From the NCBI GenBank assembly GCA_016748015.1, contig JAAOMT010000414.1, positions 23,208-87,207 of the forward strand: DNA of 64,000 nt, read 5' to 3'. The translations under genes and the position numbers were made by a program. The stretch comes from Geosiphon pyriformis. Taxonomy: Eukaryota > Glomeromycota > Glomeromycetes > Archaeosporales > Geosiphonaceae. Below, piece by piece: positions 61,137 through 63,273 of this stretch. The notes under the pieces are model-generated. The model was not told the DNA's origin, ran no database searches, and saw nothing but the letters and a program-made list of their open reading frames with translations. How positions within the stretch are numbered: the stretch's first letter is position 1; the number at the start of each line of letters is the position of its first letter.

Positions 61137-63273
61137 TTAAGCGGATCCTGCTTTTAACTCTTCTAACTGGACTGTAAGCGCTCGAATAGTAACATCCCGT
61201 TGTGCAACTTGGTTTCGCAAGTCTTCATTTTCTTGGCGAAGTGAATGATAAGCTTCTTGATACTATCACAGTGCCAAGAAATCTTTAATTAAAATAGATT
61301 CTTTTCTTAACTTAAGGCAGATTATGAAAAATGGAAACAAACCTCTTTTTCTGTTCTGGGTAGCTGAACTTGATTTTCATCCTCCTTCGGAGCGGCAGAA
61401 ACAAATTCCTTCTTTTCTTTAGCTTGGAATCCGTTCTCTAGACTGATGGTTTTTGGATTAGCATTCTTGCCGGAAAAGAATTCATCGGCAGTGAGAGCTG
61501 GTTCATCACTCACAGTTGGAGGATAGATGTCAGATTGAAAAGCATCCGACTGAATTGAATCGTTCAGAAATATTAAGTGATGGGAAAACGCGAGTAACTT
61601 TTATTCAATACAAGAATAATAAAAATTTTACCCTCCGAGGCAAAACAAAAGAAATTGGCTCAATTAAGTTGCCAGTAACTTTATAAGCCCTTGCGATCTC
61701 GCATTCGGTAACATTCAATGATCTTTTTGGTAGAAATCCCAATCCACGTTGAGGCTCAGATGACTTATATTCCGAAAGGGAGAAGAGATCATCATTTTCA
61801 AATTCGTAATAACGTATATTACCATCTCTAAGGAATAAAAGTAATTGAAGGATTATTATAATTATGCTGATTTAAATTGATTATGTTTGTGTATGTGCTT
61901 ACCCCTATTAAAAATGATTATTTTATATTTTAGATGAAAGATGTTAGTCAAATCCGATGAATATTATTAAATCTACCAAAAAGAAGCAATTTGAAGCGTT
62001 TATACCTTTCCAGCCAAAAATAAAATTTTTGTATCATTATCATAAAATGGCATTACGATTCCTGAGGAAGTATCAAGCATAATATCCTTGATGGGTTTGC
62101 CCAAACTGTTCGAATCCCAGAGCCATACTTGTCGATCACTCATCTTAGAGAAACCGGTTGTCACTATCCGGTCACTATCACCGAGCCATACCACTCGGGT
62201 ACCTTTCACTCCTTGATGACTATCGGCCTGTATCGCTACCTTGTTTGATCTTACATCAAAAATTCTGAATTTTTTATCACGTGAAGTTGTGGCTAATAAA
62301 CTCCCGTTCCAGTTCCAAGAGATGGATTGAACAAAGTCCGTAAACCCGGTGAGCTCTAATTTTTCAACACCCTTTTCAATATCCCAGAGTTTAATCGTCA
62401 AATCAGCCGAAGTTGAAGCAAGAATATTATCGGCAGTAGGATGAAATAAAACGTGACCAACTTTCCTAGAGAATTCGGTTAGCACAATAAATTCAATGAA
62501 AAATAAAACCTTCCGGTACTCTAAAGACTAAAGCTTTACCTTCCGTGACCATTCAATTTAGCTACAGGTTGAATATCAGGAGTTTCGTTTTCAACATCAA
62601 GTTTATCAATAATGTCTTCAACAACATTCCAGATCATCACCTTGGTATCTTCTGATGCGGAAGCGATTAGATAATCATTAAAATTTGCGAAATCTGTGTC
62701 TAACACAGGGGCCGTATGCGCACGATAAAGCGGTAAGTTGTCAGGAACTTTTCCTAATTGTAATAATGTAGCACTATATTAACATTCACCGGTCTCTTGA
62801 AGGTTTGGAGCAAAGCAAAGATTTCGTACCAGCATTCTTATGGGGAATTACAGCAAAGGCACCCCCACCTCCAGAGTTCCAATTGATGGCGACAAATAAC
62901 TGAGTAATTTTTGACGTAGTTAATAAAAATATCTTATGATTCAATGATTGTTAAATCCACGAAATAGAGTGAAATTTTGTACCGGATTAACCTTCACTAG
63001 ATTGGTGTCCCAAGCATTTGCAGACACCTTGACGTTATCGAAACAGTTTTCATGTTTAGCTCCCGCCCCGAAAACATGTCTATCAGGACGAGAGCAAATT
63101 GGTAAAAATTATATAATCTGTGTTTGGTTGCAGCGAAATCTTTTTCTCAAGGCAACTATAGACAGTAGAGGACTTGACATTGACCGACAAAAACCCAAAA
63201 TTGGTTCCGAGACAAAAACCAAGTGAACGACTACTACAAACCTGAACTTGGAGGCGCGAACAAAGCGTGACAT
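61137..63273 (-). CDS. CRN1: Coronin, actin-binding WD40 protein, 9 exons, 467 aa
   Basis: Coronin binds F-actin and Arp2/3 at cortical actin patches. Exons: 63242-63273, 62983-63079, 62830-62899, 62540-62753, 62006-62465, 61903-61904, 61632-61827, 61343-61549 and 61137-61262, totalling 1404 nt. The protein begins MSRFVRASKFRHVFG, the family's N-terminal signature. WD40 blades follow (for example DLTIKLWDIEKG and RDKKFRIFDVRS), then the conserved GKGDGNIRYYE after the propeller, the C-terminal extension VLPRRSDAFQSDIYPPT, a low-complexity linker (about residues 370-425) and a terminal coiled coil (YHSLRQENEDLRNQVAQR) for oligomerisation. Gly292 of GKGDGN is encoded by a 2-nt exon plus the first base of the next exon. 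Skipping that exon gives a stop three codons later. Confidence 0.95.
61903..61904 (-). other. Two-nucleotide microexon of coronin
   Basis: On the minus strand the sequence reads TTTTTAATAG, then GG, then GTAAGCAC, so a good acceptor and a good donor enclose two bases. The upstream intron is 101 nt (61905-62005, donor GTATAA) and the downstream one 75 nt (61828-61902, acceptor TCCTTAG). The two bases complete the conserved Gly codon of GKGDGN. Direct splicing of the outer exons shifts the frame into a stop. Confidence 0.8.

Follow-up and report, generated by a model that had tools for sequence, protein, structure and literature searches.

A two-nucleotide coding exon predicted in a fungal coronin gene

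The coronin gene described here very likely contains a genuine coding exon of just two nucleotides, GG, at 61903..61904 on the minus strand, probably included constitutively after the sequential removal of two short introns. A sequence-only reading had proposed that these two bases are needed both for the reading frame and for the conserved GKGDGN motif, and this is borne out by enumeration of the possible frames, by alignment with coronins of solved structure and by splice-site scores. Our high confidence reflects the fact that the family profile is continuous at this point and that GC-AG introns were tried; neither provides a way out. The use of the exon in vivo, the order in which the introns are removed and the constitutive character of inclusion are what we infer from these data.

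Results

The gene lies at 63273-61137 on the minus strand of the window, by which we mean the whole 64,000-nt stretch of DNA that was analysed; the source is a draft assembly of 124.7 Mb in 406 contigs. It has nine coding exons, all separated by GT-AG introns, and encodes a product of 467 aa. With every junction free to shift by as much as 4 nt and only GT-AG introns accepted, a single combination of junctions was open from ATG to stop, and this enumeration confirmed the coding length of 1404 nt, GG and stop codon included, that had been claimed earlier. Coding exon 1 (63242..63273; this and all the following features are on the minus strand) begins MSRFVRASKF..., and the PF08953 match starts at residue 3. 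Coding exons 2 (62983..63079) and 3 (62830..62899) come from both the junction-enumerated gene model and a search of the assembly with PF08953, and coding exons 4 (62540..62753) and 8 (61343..61549) from the junction-enumerated model. Coding exon 5 (62006..62465) ends in phase 0 after ...LFLAGK. It is followed by the upstream intron, intron A (61905..62005; 101 nt, GTATAA...TTTTTAATAG), then by the GG of coding exon 6 and by the downstream intron, intron B (61828..61902; 75 nt, GTAAGC...TTCCTTAG). Coding exon 7 (61632..61827) starts A GAT GGT AAT, finishing the codon of Gly292 and continuing with DGNIRYYE, while coding exon 9 together with the stop codon (61137..61262) encodes a C-terminal part that, judged by eye, is coiled-coil-like.

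The product is recognizable as a coronin by an N-terminal DUF1899 domain (PF08953, E=2.6e-30), WD40 repeats (PF00400, 2.1e-21) and a C-terminal WD40_4 domain (PF16300, E=5.3e-20), the first and last of which flank the microexon junction, one on each side. Among solved structures it matched Coronin-6 (E=1.3e-114), and GKGD was aligned without gaps in all five of the distinct coronin sequences from solved structures that matched at 1e-20. Both of the PF08953 matches in the assembly fall within the coronin locus, and no second copy of the junction DNA was found in the assembly, where it occurs a single time. We therefore see no paralogue that could replace its function, and there is one coronin gene only, as far as these searches see. 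Three stretches of viral contigs matched the pattern used to look for coronin relatives, none of them being a relative, and no coronin was found in the prokaryote genomes, where three bacterial loci with 25-27% identity over part of the propeller are presumably other WD40 proteins.

The GG exon stands in the context TTTTTAATAG-GG-GTAAGC, its flanks being TTTTTAATAG and GTAAGCAC, and is bounded by the AG and the GT of two complete introns. It provides codon positions 1 and 2 of Gly292 in GKGDGN, which is thereby completed between the phase-0 exon 5 and exon 7, and the reading frame of this conserved protein requires it. When GG is skipped, the computed product stops after ...AGKRW at 293 aa, matching the earlier estimate of a truncation at about 293 residues, and when intron A, intron B or both are kept, the stop comes at 292 aa. 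In all four of these mis-splicing products the stop, at 292-293 aa, precedes the last two introns.

Splicing routes were enumerated across the 178-nt gap and 60 nt of exon sequence on either side of it (the end of exon 5 and the start of exon 7), for introns no shorter than 40 nt. A single GT-AG intron over the junction was rejected, as 19 were possible and five in frame, with none open. Pairs of GT-AG introns had 20 placements, eight in frame and two open; both open pairs pass through GG, and one keeps the whole protein while 17 residues are lost in the other. A longer microexon was also tried, with GT-AG introns only, and none was open. Single GC-AG introns (27 possible, seven in frame, two open) and single AT-AC introns (206 possible, 69 in frame, 11 open) were both rejected, with conserved residues lost in the open routes; the motif was kept by none of the 11 AT-AC routes. 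Accepting GC donors opened ten more routes with two introns; nine of them start from a donor lying 46 nt within exon 5, the tenth from a donor 9 nt within it, and all ten drop conserved residues. The sequence-only reading had named a non-AG acceptor at CTT^AGA as the one in-frame alternative, and that list proved too short, in view of the two GC-AG introns of 27, the 11 AT-AC introns of 206 and one TA...TA intron that we discuss below.

Other descriptions of the compound fared no better. It does not answer to the definition of a stwintron, the GTAAGC of intron B and the TTTTTAATAG of intron A each being contiguous in the genome. Minor (U12) introns have the donor consensus RTATCCTTT; the donors here read GTATAAAC and GTAAGCAC and are not U12-type. 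Duplication of one intron from the other was likewise rejected, the two not being alike in sequence (local score 12.0; mean of 300 shuffles 12.4, with 199 of them scoring as high).

Splice-site strength was assessed against 35 reference introns, 29 from nine genes of the Cpn60/TCP-1 family in the same assembly and six that are the other introns of the coronin gene. The chaperonin genes were chosen because the ORFs of the window gave just one Pfam match, and one further contig with a chaperonin match (C348, the tenth) lies outside the reference set. There were 37 adjacent exon pairs in the chaperonin genes; 29 junctions were kept, each with exactly one solution at the spacing of the profile, and eight were dropped. 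Three of the dropped junctions had off-spacing solutions only, and the other five lacked a GT-AG solution, which means that failure to find one at the expected spacing is not unique to coronin. At one of these five, in L007, a 107-nt GT-AG intron fits once the spacing is relaxed, and three junctions of L012 without a GT-AG solution span stretches where exons went undetected. At another of the five, the NLGAR/LVQDV junction of the Hsp60-like L008 (G000:C354), the best read-through is a 137-nt GC-AG intron (GCAAGT ... TTTTATAG), a case from which it appears that this genome has GC-AG introns.

Scores were position weights derived from the reference introns, with the references themselves scored leave-one-out. 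Against this set, which is small and itself selected for GT-AG, the acceptor of intron A, just before GG, scored higher than all 35 introns and the donor of intron B, just after GG, higher than 34 of the 35; the outer donor of intron A was above 18 and the outer acceptor of intron B above 28. The reference introns ranged from 64 to 162 nt (median 82 nt, n=35). Introns of 101 and 75 nt are thus of ordinary length, and a single intron of 178 nt would be longer than every one of the 35. Intron A has a branch-point-like CTAAC 39 nt ahead of its AG, and a crude scan of intron B gave a weak match (3/5 to CTAAC), with 16 of the 35 references doing no better.

The bare pattern AG-NN-GT is common, being present in six of the 35 reference introns; AGGGGT is present in none. 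Chance was gauged with 20,000 dinucleotide-preserving shuffles of the 178-nt compound, in which the pattern had to be flanked by 45 nt or more both upstream and downstream. AG-NN-GT appeared in 757 of them, with both sites above the tenth percentile in 508, and AGGGGT appeared in 232, while AGGGGT with both site scores as good as those observed appeared in only two of the 20,000.

Discussion

We suggest that GG is brought into the message by a pair of unremarkable GT-AG introns, 101 and 75 nt long and separated by two nucleotides, which would be taken out one after the other. Stepwise removal is likely because the acceptor of intron A and the donor of intron B almost touch and could hardly be occupied together. 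Intron definition, which is to be expected given how short the sampled introns are, would govern removal, and either order would leave usable splice sites. It had been argued that an exon of this size is close to the physical limit for exon definition; with introns this short, that limit should not be binding, and the objection is probably beside the point. The outcome would be a restored frame and a Gly292 supplied to the conserved GKGDGN turn, close to where the beta-propeller ends. Constitutive inclusion is argued for by the strong splice sites on both sides of GG. That the spliceosome can handle such exons follows from the 1-nt exons already published (PMC4674806, PMC8831610 and PMC12940212).

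Two origins may be envisaged. A new intron could have been inserted two bases from an older one, or two bases could have been lost at the edge of exon 7 and the loss rescued by a cryptic AG-GG-GT, the latter being the kind of route proposed for Fusarium (PMC12940212).

The sequence-only reading had also raised the possibility of a regulatory switch, and as written this idea was not upheld, given that the strength of the sites flanking GG favours constitutive use. Regulation would add to the two-nucleotide exon rather than replace it: skipping or retention would turn coronin off by way of a truncated, decay-prone message. We regard this as improbable. The stops of all four computed mis-splicing products at 292-293 aa are in keeping with it, as is the microexon switch reported for Trichoderma Xlr2 (PMC11121469), but an early stop is a property common to any phase-breaking exon, and the sites next to GG are strong, not weak. 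We would put at the same low level a broader proposal, in which the GG exon would be conserved in its fungal lineage (the arbuscular mycorrhizal fungi, if the sequence-only reading placed it rightly) as a splicing checkpoint; forced two-step removal would then be slow or regulated, and skipped or retained messages (292-293 aa) would set the level of coronin and, through it, actin patches in spores as against growing hyphae.

Slightly less probable again is that exon 7 lacks its two initial bases through a sequencing or assembly error or a strain-specific deletion, and that the gene has one ordinary intron here. The locus does belong to a draft assembly of 406 contigs, and the junction DNA is present once. 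However, the site is not a homopolymer, the remaining gene is open and conserved, and the resulting intron would exceed each of the 35 reference introns in length. Moreover, a top-ranked AG-GG-GT that gives exactly the missing bases would have to be due to chance.

There is a slimmer chance that the junction holds one non-canonical intron of 176 nt, AAGG^TATA...CTTA^GAGA. It would produce the same mRNA and protein with no microexon, since the two G residues at the outer splice sites, one from the donor and one from the acceptor, can take the place of the exonic GG, and it is the only single-intron description that gives the mRNA AAAG-GG-AGATGG. A read aligner unaware of the microexon could report it. 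However, its TA...TA ends are not known to fit any spliceosomal class, its length would exceed that of all 35 reference introns, and it would reduce the excellent acceptor and donor around GG to a coincidence of the sort seen in two of 20,000 shuffles. The cDNA check that accompanied the earlier claim would fix the frame, but it cannot by itself separate the microexon from this intron. The pair of positions 62006 and 61827 is a trap for read aligners, in that the mRNA carrying the GG exon can be written as one false TA...TA intron. Finally, use of the GG exon together with a donor situated 51 nt further upstream, within exon 5, with 17 residues deleted, is the sole other open GT-AG route but is scarcely credible, for it removes VMPFYDNDTKILFLAGK, which aligns gap-free to five solved coronins.

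The two-nucleotide exon belongs to a kind that is already known, and on its sequence it is a further member, of 2 nt. The earlier statement that very few such exons are known is fair, although even shorter ones, of 1 nt, have been published, one of them fungal (PMC12940212). This is the 1-nt exon of the Fusarium CYP621A P450 genes, which is framed as AG-G-GT and supported by 18 reads in that paper, dated February 2026 (PMC12940212). Like it, the coronin exon is fungal, reads AG-GG-GT where the other reads AG-G-GT, rebuilds a conserved glycine motif and was first inferred from a phase conflict. Unlike it, the coronin exon has two nucleotides instead of one, lies in a cytoskeletal gene, of which the assembly showed one copy, instead of a P450, apparently comes from another fungal lineage, and is known from genomic sequence alone. 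There are also 1-nt exons in Arabidopsis APC11, for which stepwise removal was proposed (PMC4674806), and in plant VPS55 (PMC8831610). These share with coronin an ultra-short exon between two introns (PMC4674806, PMC8831610), but they are from plants, are 1 nt long and have been verified experimentally.

Fungal stwintrons resemble the present case in that two introns are removed by consecutive reactions at one apparent intron position. They differ in that the internal intron sits within a splice element (donor, branch point or acceptor) of the external intron, whereas the coronin introns are complete, with two bases between them. The microexon of Trichoderma Xlr2 is fungal, too, but its inclusion is reported to be glucose-dependent (PMC11121469). 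In the open-licence literature, searched by title and the start of the abstract, we found no exon of 1-2 nt from arbuscular mycorrhizal fungi, and the passages of PMC10234402 on introns yielded nothing on length.

If confirmed, GG would add to the exons known below 3 nt. It lies in a core gene of the cytoskeleton that the assembly shows a single time, and the titles and abstract openings searched listed no comparable report from this lineage. Judging by its structure, this coronin is a gene that automated annotation would readily break. The structure also suggests that introns of 75-100 nt that are only two bases apart are tolerable, which bears on sequential splicing by intron definition. A minigene of exons 5-7 would offer a clean test of which intron is removed first.

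Other features of the assembly and the window

A 121-nt intron in the CCT-family gene L012 (G000:C401) has a donor, GTATCCTTTT, that fits the U12 consensus. Such a donor would be in place in a fungus with many minor introns, of which Rhizophagus irregularis is a published example (PMC10639083). Together with the AT-richness of the window, it would agree with the attribution to the Glomeromycota implied by the sequence-only reading.

Close to the coronin gene, at about 63840-63930 on the plus strand, a divergent exon was read by eye with a Walker-A-like stretch. We take it to resemble a replication factor C small subunit; a three-frame scan of the stretch gave no Pfam match at 1e-5. The window is AT-rich, and the tract at 8001-16000 has just 14.7% GC and many short degenerate tandem repeats, those at 14383-14550 including units of 12, 24 and 48 nt. 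The window has 28 ORFs of 130 aa or more; 20 were scanned, and 19 of these had no Pfam match at 1e-8. The other, at 23466-24536 on the plus strand, has an RNase H domain (PF00075, 3.5e-12) and is probably a retroelement remnant.
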